Shown: positions 1,603 through 8,571 of the stretch, piece after piece
Layout: every line of letters starts with the position of its first letter
How positions within the stretch are numbered: position 1 is the first letter of the stretch
NCBI GenBank assembly: GCA_030620925.1
Contig: JAUXIQ010000064.1
Coordinates: 1-8,571, forward strand
Source of the DNA: JAUXIQ01 sp030620925 [NCBI: Nitrospinota bacterium]
GTDB taxonomy: Bacteria > JAUXIQ01
Reading direction: 5' to 3'
Length of the DNA stretch: 8,571 nt
The notes under the pieces: model-generated
Told to the model about the DNA's origin: nothing
Databases searched by the model: none
The model's input: the letters and a program-made list of their open reading frames with translations, nothing else
Program-made: the position numbers and the translations under genes

Positions 1603-3933
1603 CTAATCGGCCGGACGAATGGGAACCCGCTTCTCTGGTTTCGCAGCCTTTGGGGGTTCCTGAACTTTATTCTTCTCCTTATTCTTATCTTTATCCTTAT
1701 CGTTATTCTTATCGATATCTGTTTCCTTATTCTGACCGCTCAGCCGCAGGTTTGCCTCCTGGAGCCTGTTCGAAAGCGAGCTGATCAGCTTGAGAGATAT
1801 ATCGGGATATTTTTCGATGGTTTCTTTGAGCTTATCCCCCGGGAATAGTTTTACAACACTCTTACCTTTGGACCACACCGAAAACGGCCTGGCAGAACCG
1901 GTCACCGCGCTCATCTCACCGAAGTATTCCCCGGGCTGAGTTATTTCCCCCACTGTTACTCCATCGACGGTCATCACCAAACGACCCTGGATAAGTTTGT
2001 AGAAACTGTCGTCACTGTTGCCCTCTTTGATGACCAGGTCTCCATCCTCATACACCTTTTCATCGGGGTTCAGCAGATAGGCGGGCATCATCTCCTTTTC
2101 TTTTATCGTCTTTCTTAAAACCTCATCGAGTGTGGTTACCCCTTCTTTGACCTTAATCAGCCCTTCCTGCCTCAGGGTATTCATGCCTTCCTTCATCGAT
2201 ATTTTCCTGAGCTGGTGTTCGGTCACGTTTGCGGTTATGGCTTCCTTGACAACTTCGTTCACTTCCAATATCTCGTATATCGCTACCCGCCCTTTAAAAC
2301 CTGTTCCTCCACAGGTGGGGCATCCCCGCCCGTAATACAGTCGCAACTTGGAGAATTCATGCGGCAAGAAGCCCGCCTCTTTAAGCATGCCGGCGTTTAT
2401 TCTGGTCACCGGTGTTTTGCATTCCTGGCAAATCCGCCTCAGCAGTCTCTGGGATACCACCATGGAAACCGATGACGCGACCATGTATGACGGCACACCG
2501 ATATCGATCAGTCGGCCTATGGTAGCGGGACAGTCGTTGGTATGCAGCGTGCTGAAAACCATGTGGCCGGTCATAGCTGCCTTGATGGCGATATCGGCGG
2601 TCTCCAGGTCACGGATTTCACCTACCATGATGATATCAGGGTCCTGCCTGAGAAAAGACCTCAAGGCGGCAGCGAAGGTAAGGCCAACGTCTTCTCTCAC
2701 CAACACCTGGTTGATGCCCTTGAAGTTGAACTCCACGGGGTCTTCCGCCGTCAATATCTTGCGATCAGGTGTATTAAGCACGTTGAGGGCTGAATAGAGG
2801 GTAGTGGTTTTTCCGCTTCCCGTGGGGCCGGTGACTAAAACCAGGCCGTAGGGTTTATAAATGGTCCTCTTGAATATCTCGTAGCCATCCTCCGTGAAAC
2901 CGAGCTTGGTCAAATTAACGTTGAGGTTGGATTTATCAAGAATACGGAGAACGATGGACTCCCCGAAAAGTGTGGGAAGCGTGGAGACACGGAAATCGAC
3001 TTCTTTCTGGGCCCCCACTTTCATTTTGATTCGGCCGTCTTGCGGCACACGGCGCTCAGATATATCCAGGTGCGAGAGTATTTTTATCCTGGAGGTGATT
3101 GCGTTCTTCAACTGAAGGGGCAGGTTCATAGACTGAAAAAGAGACCCGTCCAGCCTGTACCTGACGTAAAAAGCTTTCTCGAACGGCTCTATGTGAACGT
3201 CGCTTATGCCGTCTTTAACAGCTTTGATCAATATACCGTTCACCAGTTTTATAATGGGGGCGTCTTCTGCTTTGTATAATTCCGCCTCTTCCTTTTGCGT
3301 CAACACCTCTATTGACATGTCATCCGCCGCCTCGGAAGCGAGGGAGCCGAAATCATCAATATCCTGCATGGATACAGTCTCTTCCTGCTCCTCCACAACC
3401 ACAGGCGTGGCGTCTATAAGGCTCTTATACTCTTCCTCGCTTATCTTGTAGTACTTTTTATAGGCTTCTGCGATGCTCTTTTCCGTGGCCACGTAAGCTT
3501 TTATGGATAGCTTTGTCTTGCTCTGGAGGGTTTCGACAGTGAGGAAGTTCGTGGGGTCTGCCATGGCCACGGTGAGGACATCATTCTGAGTTTCTATGGG
3601 GAAGACGAAATGCTCGCTGGCCAGTTCATAAGGGACCAGGTTTGTAACTTCTTCCTTAATCTTATGCTGAGCGATATCTATGATAGGGAAATTATACTGG
3701 CGGCTTAAGAAATTGACTATGGTATCGTCCTCGATATAGCCCAATTTCACCAGTACGCTGCCCAGCCTGCCCGCGTTCTTCTTCTGGAATTGAAGCGCCT
3801 CGTCCAATTGATACTTGGTTATCTGGCCGGCGCGAAGTAAAAGTTCTCCTATTTTCCGTTTGGCTCTATCGGAGGACCCGTCACGGACAGTCTTCTTGAA
3901 GGCAGTTTTCCTTTCGTCAAGCTGAGGAGCCAT
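1603..3933 (-). CDS. pilB: PilB/GspE-type pilus or secretion assembly ATPase with MshEN and C-terminal cyclic-nucleotide-binding domain
   Basis: A 776-residue hexameric secretion ATPase that would power pilus extension (or pseudopilus assembly) at the inner membrane. Domains in order are as follows. MshEN/T2SSE_N is at about 27-150, with two 24-residue motifs at 27-50 and 56-79 separated by five residues, the pattern known to bind c-di-GMP in MshE. The ATPase core is at about 205-610, with Walker A GPTGSGKTTT (369-378), Asp box TAEDPVEF (395-402), Walker B DPDIIMVGEIRD (431-442, E439) and His box STLHTND (461-467). A zinc-type tetracysteine is C502, C505, C538, C541. An extra CAP_ED cyclic-nucleotide-binding domain spans about 620-735, with FGE (E673) and R682 at the usual ligand-contact places. 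A charged tail is at 735-756, then a Pro/Lys-rich end. Typical PilB or GspE proteins are about 500-570 residues, so the last 160 or so are an addition. ATG 3933 has AAAGGA upstream. The gene is first of two with pilM. PilB versus GspE is chosen from the pilM neighbour; PilT is excluded by the N-terminal domain and tetracysteine. Confidence 0.93.
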   Translation of the reverse strand: MAPQLDERKTAFKKTVRDGSSDRAKRKIGELLLRAGQITKYQLDEALQFQKKNAGRLGSVLVKLGYIEDDTIVNFLSRQYNFPIIDIAQHKIKEEVTNLVPYELASEHFVFPIETQNDVLTVAMADPTNFLTVETLQSKTKLSIKAYVATEKSIAEAYKKYYKISEEEYKSLIDATPVVVEEQEETVSMQDIDDFGSLASEAADDMSIEVLTQKEEAELYKAEDAPIIKLVNGILIKAVKDGISDVHIEPFEKAFYVRYRLDGSLFQSMNLPLQLKNAITSRIKILSHLDISERRVPQDGRIKMKVGAQKEVDFRVSTLPTLFGESIVLRILDKSNLNVNLTKLGFTEDGYEIFKRTIYKPYGLVLVTGPTGSGKTTTLYSALNVLNTPDRKILTAEDPVEFNFKGINQVLVREDVGLTFAAALRSFLRQDPDIIMVGEIRDLETADIAIKAAMTGHMVFSTLHTNDCPATIGRLIDIGVPSYMVASSVSMVVSQRLLRRICQECKTPVTRINAGMLKEAGFLPHEFSKLRLYYGRGCPTCGGTGFKGRVAIYEILEVNEVVKEAITANVTEHQLRKISMKEGMNTLRQEGLIKVKEGVTTLDEVLRKTIKEKEMMPAYLLNPDEKVYEDGDLVIKEGNSDDSFYKLIQGRLVMTVDGVTVGEITQPGEYFGEMSAVTGSARPFSVWSKGKSVVKLFPGDKLKETIEKYPDISLKLISSLSNRLQEANLRLSGQNKETDIDKNNDKDKDKNKEKNKVQEPPKAAKPEKRVPIRPAD
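1667..1732. repeat. 11-unit hexanucleotide tandem repeat (TTATYN-type) inside the ATPase gene
   Basis: Read on the plus strand, eleven consecutive 6-base units run TTATTC, TTCTCC, TTATTC, TTATCT, TTATCC, TTATCG, TTATTC, TTATCG, ATATCT, GTTTCC, TTATTC. On the coding strand they encode eleven dipeptides, mostly Asp/Asn/Glu-Lys, forming residues 735-756 after the cyclic-nucleotide-binding domain. Units are degenerate, so the array is not freshly expanded. Because each unit is two codons, any gain or loss keeps the frame and only changes linker length. Confidence 0.85.
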
Positions 3934-4303: not shown

Positions 4304-4963
4304 ATGATATTTAAAAGGGATAGGCGATTGACCTCTCAGGCCGGCGAGATTTTCGACATCCTGGACGACCACTATCCCGAGGCGGCCATCGCCCTCAACT
4401 TCGAGAGCCCCCTGCAGCTTTTAGTGGCCATCATCCTGGCCGCCCAGTGCACCGATGAAAGGGTAAATTCTGTCACCGAAGGTCTTTTCAGGAAGTACCC
4501 CACTGTAAAGGATTACGCCGGGGTAAAGCTCCAGGAATTGGAGGAAGACATAAGGTCCACCGGATTCTACCGGAATAAGGCCAAAAGCATTAAGAACGCC
4601 GCCGCCCTGATAGTTGACGAGTTCAATGACAAGGTACCTGATAACCTGGACGACCTGGTTAAACTTCCGGGTATAGGCCGAAAATCCGCCAACATAATCC
4701 TCAACGAATGCTTCGACACCCCTGCCATTGGGGTAGACACTCACGTCCTGCGCTTAAGCCGGCGGCTGGGCTTCTCAGACGAGAAGAATCCGGACAAGGT
4801 GGAGAAAGACCTGTGCGCTGTAATTCCGTCGGAGAAATGGCACCGGGTTACCCGCGTGCTCACCCTGCATGGAAAAACCCTGTGCAGCGCCAGAAAACCA
4901 CTTTGCGGCCAGTGCCCCGTGGAGAAGCTTTGTGCATGGCGTAAAACCGAATCCGGCTCATGA
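4304..4963 (+). CDS. nth: Endonuclease III (DNA N-glycosylase/AP lyase, HhH-GPD, 4Fe-4S)
   Basis: Base-excision-repair enzyme removing oxidised pyrimidines and cleaving the abasic site. The 219-residue product matches the usual 210-220. Residue numbers here are from the ATG at 4304. The helix-hairpin-helix is LPGIGRKSANIILN (121-134), with catalytic lysine K127 in GRKSAN (E. coli K120). The catalytic aspartate is D145 in VDTH (E. coli D138). The iron-sulfur cluster ligands are C194, C201, C204 and C210, in the exact C-x6-C-x2-C-x5-C spacing. LAAQCTDERVN (45-55) matches the conserved SAQATD region. Neither start is well supported: an in-frame TTG at 4292 would add four residues, and no good Shine-Dalgarno site precedes either codon. 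GGAG at 4271-4274 is too far from both. ATG is preferred by codon type. It is probably monocistronic from the promoter at 4220-4249, as the next gene begins 100 bases on. Confidence 0.95.
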   Translation: MIFKRDRRLTSQAGEIFDILDDHYPEAAIALNFESPLQLLVAIILAAQCTDERVNSVTEGLFRKYPTVKDYAGVKLQELEEDIRSTGFYRNKAKSIKNAAALIVDEFNDKVPDNLDDLVKLPGIGRKSANIILNECFDTPAIGVDTHVLRLSRRLGFSDEKNPDKVEKDLCAVIPSEKWHRVTRVLTLHGKTLCSARKPLCGQCPVEKLCAWRKTESGS

Positions 4964-5047
4964 TACAGATGTCTGTTTTAGGATAGTAGTTGTTATTTCT
5001 TTGCCGGTGGGTGAATGCGCCCTTAAGATCAACCCGTTTTGAGGAAG

Positions 5048-5053
5048 AGGAGG
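5048..5053 (+). promoter_or_regulatory. Ribosome binding site of the enoyl-CoA hydratase
   Basis: AGGAGG, 10 bases before ATG 5064, sits within a longer GA-rich tract (5041-5063). The preceding 100 bases after nth show no clear promoter or intrinsic terminator; a weak ACAGA/TCTGT hairpin followed by TTT at 4965-4979 is too short to call. Confidence 0.75.
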
Positions 5054-5063
5054 AGAAAAGAGA

Positions 5064-5840
5064 ATGGACACCGTAATTTACGAAATCAAAGACAAGATAG
5101 CCTACATTACCATCAACCGGCCTGAAGCCTACAACGCATGCGATCAACCCACCTACGATCGGCTCTCAGAAGTCTGGCACGATTTCCGGGATAATGAAGA
5201 CGCCTGGGTGGCCATCCTCACCGGCATGGGAGAGAAAGCCTTCTGCGCCGGCAGCGACATCAAGCTCAATTTCTCCTTCATGCCCCATCCCTCCGAAGCT
5301 TTCGAGCCTCAGGCCGATAGGGACATAATGCGGGGGCTGGACATTTGGAAACCCATCATTGCGGCCGTTAACGGGCACTGCAACGGCGGGGGCATGGAGA
5401 TGGCCCTATCCTGTGATATAAGGGTCGCCTCGGAGAACGCCCAGTTCGGCCTGGGCGAGGTGAAGCTGGGTCTTCTGCCCGGCGGAGGAGGAACGCAAAG
5501 GCTCCCCAGGACGGTTCCCCTCTGCCACGCCCTGTGGATGCTCTACACCGGCGAGCGGATCGACGCCCAGGAGGCTTACCGGATAGGTCTGGTGAATAAA
5601 GTAGTCCCTCTTGCCGATCTCATGCCCACCGCTGAAGAGATGGCCGGGAAAATCCTGGCCGCCGGCCCCCTGTCGGTTAGGGCCATCAAACAGGCAGCCA
5701 TAAGAGGAATGAGCATGCCCCTCGAGGACGGCCTGGGGTTGGAAGCGCAACTTTTCCGCCTCCTGCGTGTAACCGAGGACAGTGTGGAAGGCCCCCGGGC
5801 TTTCGCCGAGAAACGCCCGGCGGAGTGGAAAGCCAGGTAG
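5064..5840 (+). CDS. Enoyl-CoA hydratase/isomerase (crotonase family)
   Basis: A 258-residue, full-length crotonase-fold protein, expected to be a cytoplasmic hexamer adding water across the double bond of a 2-enoyl-CoA, as in beta-oxidation. The first oxyanion-hole segment is AFCAGSDIKL (59-68). The second is NGGGMEMALSCDIRVA (107-122). Both catalytic glutamates of the rat enzyme (E144 and E164) are present, as E112 in GGGMEMA and E132 in GLGEVKLG, which favours true hydratase activity over isomerase or hydrolase members lacking one of them. The GLLPGGGGTQRLPR segment (136-149) and C-terminal AFAEKRPAEW (246-255) are also typical. The chain-length preference cannot be read. ATG 5064 has a strong AGGAGG. 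It is followed by a hairpin and then the mutase-like gene with its own promoter, so it is probably its own transcription unit, though a shared acyl-CoA pathway is possible. Confidence 0.93.
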   Translation: MDTVIYEIKDKIAYITINRPEAYNACDQPTYDRLSEVWHDFRDNEDAWVAILTGMGEKAFCAGSDIKLNFSFMPHPSEAFEPQADRDIMRGLDIWKPIIAAVNGHCNGGGMEMALSCDIRVASENAQFGLGEVKLGLLPGGGGTQRLPRTVPLCHALWMLYTGERIDAQEAYRIGLVNKVVPLADLMPTAEEMAGKILAAGPLSVRAIKQAAIRGMSMPLEDGLGLEAQLFRLLRVTEDSVEGPRAFAEKRPAEWKAR

Positions 5841-5858
5841 CAGGTTAACGGGTATTGA

Positions 5859-5892
5859 GGTAAGGGGGCTCTCAGACTGGCGCCCCCTTACC
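5859..5892 (+). terminator. Strong GC-rich hairpin after the enoyl-CoA hydratase
   Basis: GGTAAGGGGGC (5859-5869) pairs perfectly with GCCCCCTTACC (5882-5892): an 11-base-pair stem with a 12-base loop, beginning 19 bases after the stop codon. It is followed by GCTCCTTCG rather than a T-run, so it is not a textbook intrinsic terminator. It may act as a U-less terminator or as a 3'-end stabiliser. It insulates the hydratase from the next promoter. Confidence 0.6.
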
Positions 5893-5945
5893 GCTCCTTC
5901 GAGTCAAAGAGCGCCTCAGCGATGGGCCGTAAAATCGTTGTGTGC

Positions 5946-5984
5946 TTGACAATTGAGGATTTTTATTATGGGGAATGTTATAAT
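5946..5984 (+). promoter_or_regulatory. Extended -10 promoter for the mutase-like gene
   Basis: TGTTATAAT (5976-5984) is a perfect extended -10 element in an AT-rich stretch. The -35 side is unusual: TTGAGG (5953-5958) is 20 bases upstream and the better TTGACA (5946-5951) is 27 bases upstream, both longer than the normal 16-18. The extended -10 may suffice, or the long spacing may need an activator. Transcription would start near 5991, giving a leader of about 45 bases. ACAATT (5949-5954) and AATTGT (5991-5996) form a short inverted repeat flanking the core. Confidence 0.6.
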
Positions 5985-6022
5985 GAATATAATTGTAATA
6001 AAGCAATGGGAACATCCATTTT

Positions 6023-6028
6023 AAGGAG
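6023..6028 (+). promoter_or_regulatory. Ribosome binding site deciding the mutase-like start
   Basis: AAGGAG ends 7 bases before ATG 6036. An in-frame ATG at 5922 would start upstream of the promoter -10 element and has no comparable ribosome binding site, and the extra 38 residues look unlike the family, so 6036 is the start. Confidence 0.85.
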
Positions 6029-6035
6029 CGATATC

Positions 6036-7664
6036 ATGGGTAATTCAGATGCGAAAAAGAATCATCAGGAAGGCCTGAAGGAAGTAGAGCTGCCTTCGGG
6101 TATAAAGATCAAACCCGTCTACGGCCCGGAAGACACGGCACACCTGGATTATCAGCAAGACGTGGGAAACCCGGGAGAATACCCCTATCTCCGGGGCCCC
6201 TACGGCACAATGTACAGGGGCCGCCCCTGGACCAAGCGCCTCTACGCCGGCTATGGCACCTCTGAAGACACCAACAAGCGCTTCAAATTCCTCATGGAGA
6301 ACGGCCAGACCGGCCTGAGCATGGCTCTGGACCTCCCCACTCAGTTGGGCATGGACTCCGGCGACCCGCTGGCGGTGGCCGACGTAGGCCGCGTGGGCGT
6401 GGCCATCGACACACTGAAAGACTTGGAGGGCGTCTTCGAGGGCATCGACCTCGGCAATATCAGCACATCATTCACCATCAACTCCACCGCCGCCATCCTT
6501 CTGGCAATGTACATCGCGGTGGGAGACAAGCAGGGGGTGCCCCAGGAGAAACTGACCGGCACCATCCAGAACGACATTCTCAAAGAATACGTCGCCCGGG
6601 GGACGTGGATATTCCCCATCGAGCCTTCAGTGCGTCTCATCGGAGATACCATCGAATACTGCGCCAACCATATTCCCAGGTTCAACTCCATAAGCATCTC
6701 CGGCCCCCACATGCGCGAGGCGGGCGCCACCGCCGTGCAGGAGCTGGCCTACACCTTCGGCAACGCTAAAGAGTATATAAAAGAGGTGCTGAGGCGAGGA
6801 TATGATATAGACGACTTCGCCCCCAGCCTCTCCTTCATATTCTGCAACCGGGACAACTTCTTCGAAGAGATATGCAAGTACCGTGCGGCCAGACGCTTAT
6901 GGGCCCGCATCATGAAAGAGGAATACGGAGCCAAGAACCCCAAATCCATGATGCTCCGCTTCGCCGCCGGAGGAGGCGGCCTGTGCATGACCAAGAACCA
7001 GCCCAAACTGAACATAGCCCGCAGCACACTGGTGGCTCTCTCTTCGGTGCTGGGAGGCACCCAATCGCTGCTGCTGGCAGCCTATGACGAAGCATATGCC
7101 ATCCCCACCGAGGAATCGGCCCGCCTGGCGCTTATGATTCAGAACCTGCTGGGCGAGGAAGTGGGCGTGGCCGATACTGCCGACCCCCTGGCGGGTTCCT
7201 ACTTCATAGAATCTCTGACCGATGAAATCGAGAAGAAAACCAGGGAGGTCATTGAAAAGATAGACGTCATGGGCGGGATGGTGAGCGCCATAAAGGAGGG
7301 GCTTATCCAGCGGGAACTCGCCCGCGAGGCCTACATTGAGGAGATAAGCATCCAGAAAGGCGAAAAGGTCAAGATAGGGATAAACAAGTACGTAGTCGAA
7401 GAAGACGAAGAAGAGGATATGGAAATCCACCAGATGCCGGAGGACACCATCAGGAAACAGGTGGAGAGCACCATGAAGGTAAAGGAGGAGCGCGATCAGG
7501 GCAAGACTGACGAAGCGCTCATCGCCCTTTCCGAGGCGGCCAAGGGAACGGAAAACATGATGCCCTACCTGATAAACGCGGTAAAGGAATACGCCACCGT
7601 GGGCGAGATAGTATCCACGTTTAAAAGCGTCTTCGGAGCCTACCAGGAGATCACCGGAATATAG
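6036..7664 (+). CDS. Methylmalonyl-CoA-mutase-like acyl-CoA mutase large (catalytic) subunit, divergent active site
   Basis: A 542-residue homologue of the TIM-barrel catalytic chain of B12-dependent acyl-CoA mutases, complete through the C-terminal ERD...ATVGEI...VFGAY segment (485-537) but without the cobalamin domain, which is a separate subunit in such systems. Comparison is from memory with Propionibacterium MutB. CoA-channel residues are kept: Y56, M59, R63, T66, R68 (MutB Y75, M78, R82, T85, R87), Y70 (Y89), T176 and Q178. R188 (R207, which holds the methylmalonyl carboxylate; Gln in isobutyryl- and 2-hydroxyisobutyryl-CoA mutases) and H225 (H244) are also kept. Changed positions are Y243 to P224, R283 to S264, the HSQ motif (H328-Q330) to AAG at 310-312 within AAGGGG, and HTN (364-366) to LLA at 346-348. 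Q343 and E352 remain. An acidic patch lies at 455-460. No B12 subunit, epimerase or MeaB/ArgK gene adjoins it. The family is certain. The substrate, and even mutase activity, are open. Confidence 0.85.
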   Translation: MGNSDAKKNHQEGLKEVELPSGIKIKPVYGPEDTAHLDYQQDVGNPGEYPYLRGPYGTMYRGRPWTKRLYAGYGTSEDTNKRFKFLMENGQTGLSMALDLPTQLGMDSGDPLAVADVGRVGVAIDTLKDLEGVFEGIDLGNISTSFTINSTAAILLAMYIAVGDKQGVPQEKLTGTIQNDILKEYVARGTWIFPIEPSVRLIGDTIEYCANHIPRFNSISISGPHMREAGATAVQELAYTFGNAKEYIKEVLRRGYDIDDFAPSLSFIFCNRDNFFEEICKYRAARRLWARIMKEEYGAKNPKSMMLRFAAGGGGLCMTKNQPKLNIARSTLVALSSVLGGTQSLLLAAYDEAYAIPTEESARLALMIQNLLGEEVGVADTADPLAGSYFIESLTDEIEKKTREVIEKIDVMGGMVSAIKEGLIQRELAREAYIEEISIQKGEKVKIGINKYVVEEDEEEDMEIHQMPEDTIRKQVESTMKVKEERDQGKTDEALIALSEAAKGTENMMPYLINAVKEYATVGEIVSTFKSVFGAYQEITGI

Positions 7665-7668
7665 TTCA

Positions 7669-7692
7669 GCAGGAAACCGGGGCTAGGCCTGC
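7669..7692. terminator. Weak hairpin in the convergent gap after the mutase-like gene
   Basis: GCAGG (7669-7673) can pair with CCTGC (7688-7692), extended by CC/GG inside after a three-base bulge, and is followed at 7699-7706 by a T-rich stretch (TTATTTTT). It overlaps the end of the opposing MBL gene. It could terminate the plus-strand transcript, but the stem is short and bulged. Confidence 0.25.
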
Positions 7693-8571
7693 GCCTCATT
7701 ATTTTTCTGAAAATATTGAAGGAAACCCTCCACCGCGGAGAGCAAAAGCTCCCCGAAGGTTTCCGCCTGACGGTTTTCCTGGGCTACGCTGAACATGGGG
7801 GCCTCCAGCAGCGTTCGGGCCATCCCCTCCGGACTGACTCCCTCCCGATGGAGACGGGAAAGAACGGAGTGTATGTGCTCTATCTGCGCTTTAGAAAGGG
7901 CTAGGGTCTCCGCCACTCTTTCGGTGAACCCGAATTGCGAAAAGCAGAGCATATCGGGCTCAAGCAAAGCCAGTTTTTCCAGGCTTCTCAGCGTTTCCGG
8001 ATAATCGAAGCCCGGGGGGGCGATGGCGGGATAAAGTATATCCCCGACGGGTATATAGTGGCCGGGAAGCTCTCCCACGAATGCGAGCTTTCCACCCTCT
8101 TCGAAAATCAACAGATGATGAGGCGCGTGGCCCGGCGCGGGGTAAATTCGCATGGAGACGCCTCCCCCGGCGTCTATGACCGCATCCTCGACGGGAACTA
8201 CGTTCTCTTCGGGAACGGGAATTATAGGACCGTGAATCTTCAGCACCGCCTCTCGCCCTCCGTAAACCTTATCAGCGCTCGCCAGCAGGCGGGAAGGATC
8301 GATAAGATGCCGGGCGCCACTCTTGTGCACGTAAACTTTAAGCCAGGGCAACTCACGGACCAGCCAACCGGCCCCGCCCGAGTGGTCCAGATGGATGTGA
8401 GTGACGATGACGCCGGCTACATCTTCCCTGCCTATCCCCAGGCTATCCAGCGAGCTGAGAAGAAGGGAAGCTAACTCCTCGGTACCCGTTTCCACCAGGT
8501 ATACCTTTTCTCCCCGGATGACGTAGGAGCCGCTACCCGGCGTGGTTACTGTCCCCAGGGTGGACAGATAA
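7683..8571 (-). CDS. MBL-fold metallo-hydrolase, 5' end cut by the window edge
   Basis: 295 residues are visible; the frame is open through the last base of the window, so the true start lies beyond it. A GTG at 8495 is in frame, but the 25 residues before it (ending GSGSYVIRGEKVYLVETG) form the expected first beta strands of a metallo-beta-lactamase fold, so that GTG is internal. The metal motif HIHLDH gives H58, H60, D62, H63 in visible numbering, and the PGHAPHH loop gives H148. The usual bridging aspartate position reads GEL (E167), and the usual final histidine position reads SQFGF (Q211). The C-terminal 80 or so residues are a helical extension typical of the glyoxalase-II-like branch. 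The activity would be a hydrolase, perhaps a thioesterase or lactonase, but no substrate can be named. It converges on the mutase-like gene with 18 bases between stops. Confidence 0.85.
   Translation of the reverse strand, partial: YLSTLGTVTTPGSGSYVIRGEKVYLVETGTEELASLLLSSLDSLGIGREDVAGVIVTHIHLDHSGGAGWLVRELPWLKVYVHKSGARHLIDPSRLLASADKVYGGREAVLKIHGPIIPVPEENVVPVEDAVIDAGGGVSMRIYPAPGHAPHHLLIFEEGGKLAFVGELPGHYIPVGDILYPAIAPPGFDYPETLRSLEKLALLEPDMLCFSQFGFTERVAETLALSKAQIEHIHSVLSRLHREGVSPEGMARTLLEAPMFSVAQENRQAETFGELLLSAVEGFLQYFQKNNEAQA

Follow-up and report, generated by a model that had tools for sequence, protein, structure and literature searches.

An acyl-CoA mutase catalytic subunit lacking the HxQT and HTN motifs belongs to a distinct subfamily with a candidate dicarboxylyl-CoA substrate

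Introduction

To our knowledge, few substrates are known for B12-dependent acyl-CoA mutases, and annotation gives the members of this family the name methylmalonyl-CoA mutase. The window analyzed here, a stretch of 8,571 nucleotides on contig C374, encodes a homolog in which residues of the substrate side are kept and both motifs facing the cofactor are replaced. The question raised by this locus is whether such a protein is still a mutase and, if so, of which acyl-CoA. We consider it likely from the comparisons below that this protein serves as the catalytic subunit of an adenosylcobalamin (AdoCbl)-dependent acyl-CoA mutase from a distinct subfamily, working with a B12 subunit supplied in trans on a dicarboxylyl-CoA, and this substrate could be new. 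The subfamily is named GG type here because its members have a Gly-Gly within the residues found in place of HxQTSG.

The assembly holding the window contig (genome G000) is 2.50 Mb in size and consists of 445 contigs, with 89.47% completeness and 3.55% contamination. The nearest of 40 genomes searched as its relatives shared the same domain at best, and a phylum search returned G000 alone. The assembly gave no match for 16S rRNA.

Results and Discussion

The window mutase gene and its product

The genes and signals of the window considered in this study are as follows.

1603-3933 (-), PilB-type ATPase whose N-terminal part carries an MshE-type c-di-GMP motif; its C-terminal stretch 609-730 is weakly CRP-like (27.1 bits)
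5064-5840 (+), crotonase of the enoyl-CoA hydratase/isomerase family (PF00378, 228 bits), a possible pathway neighbor
5859-5892 (+), hairpin of 11 bp in the gap between the crotonase and mutase genes, rich in G+C and lacking a T run
6023-6028 (+), AAGGAG, ribosome-binding-site-like, for the ATG at 6036
6036-7664 (+), acyl-CoA mutase catalytic (substrate-binding) subunit of 542 aa without a C-terminal B12 domain (TIGR00641, PF01642; PDB matches 4r3u, 2xij, and 1req)
7683-8570 (-), metallo-beta-lactamase-fold protein with weak family matches only, oriented convergently to the mutase gene and truncated by the end of the contig

Judged from its sequence, the ORF at 6036-7664 (+) is a real gene with a methylmalonyl-CoA-mutase-type catalytic domain. 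Its product matched the catalytic-domain profiles of the family over their full length, with 664.8 bits against TIGR00641 (cut-off 303.8; positions 4-524 of 528) and 656.4 bits against PF01642 (positions 3-512 of 512). The score against the methylmalonyl-CoA mutase equivalog NF006944 was 578.1 bits, below the cut-off of 876; this model has 721 positions and reaches over the B12 domain, which the window mutase does not have. The best PDB match was 2-hydroxyisobutyryl-CoA mutase HcmA (4r3u, 533 bits). Identity to canonical enzymes reached 54%, and none of the matches listed outside G000 exceeded this value when the window protein was used as the single query. A second in-frame ATG is present upstream at 5922 in the ORF list, but the start at 6036 was favored because of the AAGGAG sequence at 6023-6028.

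A consensus scan found no promoter-like site in 4900-7760. Eight terminator-like sites were found in the same interval (mean of shuffles 3.6, sd 2.1), each of them on the minus strand and several within the mutase gene. No Rfam match was obtained at the gathering score.

Active-site residues

The window mutase was aligned to the PDB sequences of MutB, human MUT, M. tuberculosis MutB, and HcmA. All four alignments were ungapped around both motifs, which rules out that the HxQT and HTN positions are filled elsewhere in the protein. The residues that distinguish the window mutase are encoded at the following positions.

6243-6245 (+), codon Y70, equivalent to MutB Y89, kept
6597-6599 (+), codon R188, equivalent to MutB R207, kept
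6705-6710 (+), codons P224-H225, equivalent to MutB Y243-H244, with Tyr replaced and His kept
6825-6827 (+), codon S264, equivalent to MutB R283, replaced
6963-6980 (+), AAGGGG, residues 310-315, at MutB H328-S329-Q330-T331-S332-G333
7071-7079 (+), LLA, residues 346-348, at MutB H364-T365-N366

The residue table agreed with the original prediction at each position that it had named. The equivalents of MutB Y75, M78, R82, T85, R87, Y89, T195, Q197, R207, H244, Q361, and E370 are kept, whereas Y243 is replaced by P224, R283 by S264, H328-S329-Q330 by A310-A311-G312, and H364-T365-N366 by L346-L347-A348. The protein thus retains the catalytic Y89/R207/H244 set as Y70, R188, and H225, including the carboxylate-binding Arg of the substrate side, and carries AAGG and LLA where methylmalonyl-CoA mutases have HxQT and HTN. 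We take MutB Y89, R207, and H244 to lie on the substrate side, with R207 binding the substrate carboxylate, and H328-Q330 and H364-N366 to face the cobalamin and adenosyl groups. With these roles, the kept residues would face the thioester, the carboxylate, and the radical, and the replaced ones the corrin and adenosyl groups.

Compared with the catalytic part of methylmalonyl-CoA mutase (MutB, human MUT, and the archaeal-type split enzymes), the window chain shares the family, the ungapped alignment around the motifs, and Y89, Q197, R207, H244, and E370, but it differs in lacking the B12 domain and in the replacement of HxQT, HTN, Y243, and R283. HcmA is a separate large subunit, as is the window mutase; however, HCQT and HTN are intact in HcmA, while Y89 is replaced by I and R207 by Q, a pattern opposite to that of the window mutase.

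Since the side chains of H328, H364, N366, and Y243 are absent, the substrate is probably bulkier than succinyl-CoA; a pocket opened in this manner suggests a preference for a substituted, bulkier dicarboxylyl-CoA over methylmalonyl-CoA. The AlphaFold model of the window mutase had a mean pLDDT of 69.7 and values below 50 at residues 313-388, and the pocket was therefore not read from this model.

Motif census and the Ecm-type exception

A census was taken of 144 distinct homologs from outside G000, after 10 partial matches had been dropped, in a sample biased toward close homologs. Y89, R207, and H244 were all kept in 109 of them; 99 of these 109 also kept HxQ and HTN/D, and 10 had lost both. 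Among the other 35 homologs, both motifs were present in 29, HxQ only in one, and neither in five. The co-occurrence of kept substrate residues and lost motifs is, at the level of sequence, beyond chance. The ten proteins with Y89/R207/H244 and neither motif comprised three Ecm-type proteins, one protein from a Desulfosarcina MAG (L053), and six GG-type members.

The Ecm-type protein L190, encoded on a Tritonibacter plasmid whose record is unannotated, has GVQV and QLPA at the motif positions and keeps Y89/R207/H244. A ccr gene (TIGR01751, 618.2 bits; cut-off 378.55) is located approximately 1.5 kb away on the other strand. L190 was assigned to the ethylmalonyl-CoA type by this nearby ccr and by its own clade, not by a published assay, and L160 and L161 were assigned to the Ecm type by clade only (100/100). 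A 2008 report by Erb presents Ecm, in its title, as a new subclade within the B12-dependent acyl-CoA mutases. It had been claimed for this locus that the methylmalonyl-, isobutyryl-, ethylmalonyl-, and 2-hydroxyisobutyryl-CoA mutases without exception retain H-x-Q-T and SLHTN; L190, with its assignment by context and clade, contradicts that claim. Because an Ecm-type mutase lacks both motifs, their loss need not mean the loss of B12 chemistry. Mutase activity in the GG type would show that HxQT and HTN determine specificity and are not required for B12 chemistry, a view to which the Ecm-type sequences already point. L190 resembles the window mutase in keeping Y89/R207/H244 and in having lost H328 and HTN, but it shares only 34% identity with it, has a fused B12 domain, and belongs to a separate clade.

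The Desulfosarcina protein L053 (4916-7001) has FTGSCGS and IHTAC at the motif positions, with HT kept but not N. Its gene is followed by that of a B12 subunit with DGHDRG, and the protein fell outside the GG group in the tree built without motif columns.

Phylogeny and distribution of the GG type

In a first tree of 56 rows, the window protein formed one clade with two paralogs from G000, C39 and C41 (100/98), and L127 of genome G072 was sister to these three (94/96). C41 is a 5' fragment in which the motif regions are missing. The second tree, of 50 rows, was built with 43 motif columns blanked; from the first tree, 17 divergent rows were dropped, and plasmid proteins of Marinobacter, Sulfitobacter, Diaphorobacter, and Paraburkholderia, L196 of genome G275, and Ecm-type proteins were added. 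Nine GG rows grouped at 93/97, just under the star level of the program (95/80), with the trio from G000 at 99/96 and the four plasmid proteins at 100/100. The Ecm-type proteins formed a separate clade at 100/100, which does not include the window mutase. As the GG clade holds without the motif columns, the motif change agrees with the history recorded in the rest of the protein.

A four-member profile was searched against 386 genomes. C374, C39, and L127 scored at least 989 bits, and the next genome was G275 with 802 bits; its protein, L196, carries GVVCGG and FTCA. In the 30 loci tabulated from this search, 27 others carry HxQT and HTN. Matches at E <= 1e-235 were found in 12 of the 18 genomes of the phylum of G275, all with G[VT]VCGG and FTCA. 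With AAGGGG and LLLAA, the window mutase has diverged further at the motifs than the operon relatives, which have GVVCGG and FTCA. The window mutase shows the combination that marks the GG type, namely Y89/R207/H244 kept with HxQ and HTN lost.

The proposal that the protein could define a separate subfamily was thus borne out by a clade that persists at 93/97 after removal of the motif columns and by homologs from other phyla. The expectation concerning automated labels also held, since public records call the members just "methylmalonyl-CoA mutase family protein." By these trees and profile searches, the GG type is a distinct subfamily that occurs in several phyla and beyond G000. No description of it was recognized in full-text literature searches that covered only a minority of subscription journals and whose hits were judged mostly by title and start of abstract.

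Gene neighborhoods of GG-type mutases

The gene of L127 lies in a row on one strand consisting of ccr (564.3 bits), acyl-CoA dehydrogenase, mutase, B12 subunit (TIGR00640, 144.3 bits), and 3-hydroxyacyl-CoA dehydrogenase. A different row, crotonase - mutase - B12 subunit - CoA transferase, was found in all four Pseudomonadota plasmid regions opened, which were taken from seven plasmid records (that of Marinobacter included) with a protein sharing 60% or more identity with the Marinobacter one. The B12 subunits adjoining L127 and the four plasmid mutases all contain DxHxxG. One plasmid CoA transferase was scanned and resembles family III enzymes. The gene after the CoA transferase was MeaB by PF03308 in the three plasmids scanned, two of which were also compared with NCBIfam and scored 222.1 and 228.7, just under the cut-off of 240.75; the Diaphorobacter counterpart is annotated as a GTP-binding protein. 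Transporter genes follow downstream in Sulfitobacter, Diaphorobacter (a substrate-binding protein), and Paraburkholderia, whereas the Marinobacter row has an adenosyltransferase gene instead. Neither ccr nor acyl-CoA dehydrogenase occurs in the annotations of the four plasmid regions, and among L127, these regions, and the window, ccr lies beside a GG-type mutase only in the case of L127.

In the phylum of G275, a crotonase gene is directly beside the mutase gene in 11 of the 12 loci, the 12th being truncated where its contig begins. A search of these 12 short loci found no B12 subunit, and GG-type genes therefore do not generally adjoin a B12 gene. Adjacency to a crotonase gene is not general either, as it was absent for L127, C39, and C41 in the stretches read.

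In the window, the crotonase gene ends 195 bp upstream of the mutase gene, and its best PDB match is the short-chain-enoyl-CoA hydratase 5z7r. Its product showed 27-35% identity to five crotonases of other GG-type members, so it was regarded as a family-level match only; conserved synteny was rejected because it is not an orthologue of the operon crotonases. The fold of 5840-5920, around the hairpin between the two genes, was weak (-30 kcal/mol, z -1.04, 33 of 200 shuffles equal), and the hairpin is absent from the terminator scan list. Crotonase and mutase may be on separate transcripts.

The window has no gene for a B12 subunit, for MeaB, or for a CoA transferase. In the rest of G000, a CoA transferase family III gene follows the C39 mutase gene (437.8 bits) and another precedes the C41 mutase gene (400.1 bits). 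G000 has 12 B12-binding matches, and small mutase-subunit-like B12 proteins with DxHxxG are encoded on C13, C253, C122 (the first of two), C311, C330, and C439. The second B12 protein of C122 (L106, 6896-7309), beside the second C122 mutase, has DAQHDRG, which is DxHxxG with an extra residue. MeaB gave one strong match in G000, on C209 (315.6 bits), and three weak ones.

Proposed function and alternative explanations

Radical chemistry on a different acyl-CoA or a non-mutase role had been thought likely for the window protein. The gene contexts do not support the latter as likely, since L127 and the four plasmid mutases adjoin a B12 subunit with DxHxxG and MeaB follows in three of three plasmid operons, although neither the window nor the 12 short loci in the phylum of G275 include a B12 subunit. 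A different acyl-CoA would fit these contexts.

We take YgfD of E. coli to be a MeaB-type GTPase. The Sbm operon of this organism, sbm-ygfD-ygfG-ygfH, encodes a mutase, YgfD, a methylmalonyl-CoA decarboxylase of the crotonase superfamily, and a CoA transferase, which together decarboxylate succinate to propionate, as described (PMC3850637). This set of functions equals that of the plasmid GG operons, which suggests, by analogy, a route from a dicarboxylate to an acyl-CoA via CoA transferase, mutase, and crotonase. The GG operons differ from the Sbm operon in the separate B12 subunit of the mutase, the family III-like CoA transferase (one scanned), the transporter genes in three of four, the other motifs, and a decarboxylase role that would have to be assumed for the crotonase. 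The best family and PDB matches of the crotonases are enoyl-CoA hydratases and related hydratases, so that the decarboxylase assignment was not adopted as a result.

In the proposed mechanism, a CoA transferase would activate a dicarboxylate, R188 would hold the free carboxylate of the dicarboxylyl-CoA, and a B12 subunit encoded elsewhere in G000 would dock on the barrel. The CoA-carbonyl group would migrate between succinyl-type and malonyl-type skeletons by radical rearrangement, and the adjoining crotonase would act on the mutase product.

Several other explanations were weighed against this proposal. The GG type may correspond to a known but poorly labeled function, that of phenylsuccinyl-CoA/benzylmalonyl-CoA mutase (IaaG of the anaerobic indoleacetate pathway) or of alkylsuccinyl-CoA mutase. 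IaaGH works after the CoA transferase IaaL, as described (PMC8360864), several GG-type genes likewise adjoin CoA transferases, and an opened pocket would suit a substituted succinyl-CoA. By analogy, IaaGH may itself be a GG-type member. However, the likeness is one of description rather than of sequence and none of the four plasmid regions has an annotated acyl-CoA dehydrogenase, which leaves this identity possible but doubtful. It is less probable that the GG type is a second solution for ethylmalonyl-CoA/methylsuccinyl-CoA, apart from the Ecm clade. L127 is located between an acyl-CoA dehydrogenase and a B12 subunit behind ccr, both motifs are likewise missing from the Ecm-type clade, and C39 has LPA like Ecm, but among L127, the four plasmid annotations, and the window, ccr was seen only with L127.

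The remaining explanations concern the window copy more directly. Its motif changes are stronger than those of the operon members and the window has no B12 subunit, as would be expected if it were an inactive copy serving as a CoA-binding partner or a structural subunit like the inactive MutA chain of P. shermanii, which is likewise without both motifs. MutA has Ile at H244, however, whereas the window mutase keeps Y89, R207, H244, Q197, and E370, and C39 keeps them too with different replacements elsewhere. These kept catalytic residues argue against a MutA-like chain, and we regard loss of activity as improbable. Least probable by far is an ordinary methylmalonyl-CoA mutase that has undergone neutral drift at the two motifs. 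Its identity of up to 54% to canonical enzymes would allow this, but both motifs are kept in the 99 of 109 census sequences mentioned above, G000 has a canonical-looking copy (fragment C176), and the replacements recur through a clade.

The preferred reading thus remains an AdoCbl-dependent mutase of the GG type. A more far-reaching version is put forward tentatively, at somewhat less than even confidence: the GG type would be a new subfamily with a substrate undescribed for the family and a compact dicarboxylate-to-acyl-CoA route (CoA transferase, mutase, and crotonase) that spans Pseudomonadota plasmids and uncultured phyla, and in the lineage of G000 the mutases would have multiplied to 17 or more that differ in their active sites. 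As a clade with replaced motifs has a conserved, catabolic-looking operon in named bacteria, its substrate is directly testable.

Expansion of acyl-CoA mutases in G000

PF01642 gave 19 matches in G000, comprising 13 near full length, four N-terminal fragments, and two C-terminal fragments, which correspond to at least 17 catalytic-subunit genes. They are located on contigs C374, C39, C439, C311, C176, C282, C330, C122 (two), C118, C398, C154, C262 (two), C226, C97, C353, C41, and C73. Since no pair exceeds about 64% identity, these genes are not assembly duplicates. The GC content of the mutase contigs (0.505-0.587) overlaps that of other G000 stretches (0.486-0.571). In a first-look count over 386 genomes, with three candidates scored per genome, G000 had the most matches (19), followed by G086 (14), the others listed having nine or fewer; 154 genomes were without a match. 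Full scoring gave 13 for G086 and five each for G264 and G288, in which gene pieces may count twice. Such a number of mutase genes in G000 would point to unexplored acid metabolism.

Many of the G000 paralogs are altered at Y89, R207, or H244 too. Their HTN position reads, for example, HCC, QTA, or QTC, and B12 subunits in G000 are fewer than mutase genes. The C226 paralog L110 (1423-3183) has TAH for HSQ and VFP for HTN, keeps the R207 and H244 positions, and falls outside the clade of the window protein in the first tree. Several of the G086 mutases (L156, L159, L162, L165, L168, and L171-L178) lack Y89/R207/H244 as well as HxQT/HTN. Genes of the NADH:flavin oxidoreductase family (PF00724) adjoin the mutase genes of C97 (L111) and C118 (L105), and the C118 mutase gene is also adjoined by a gene for a 2-hydroxyglutaryl-CoA dehydratase D-component (PF06050).
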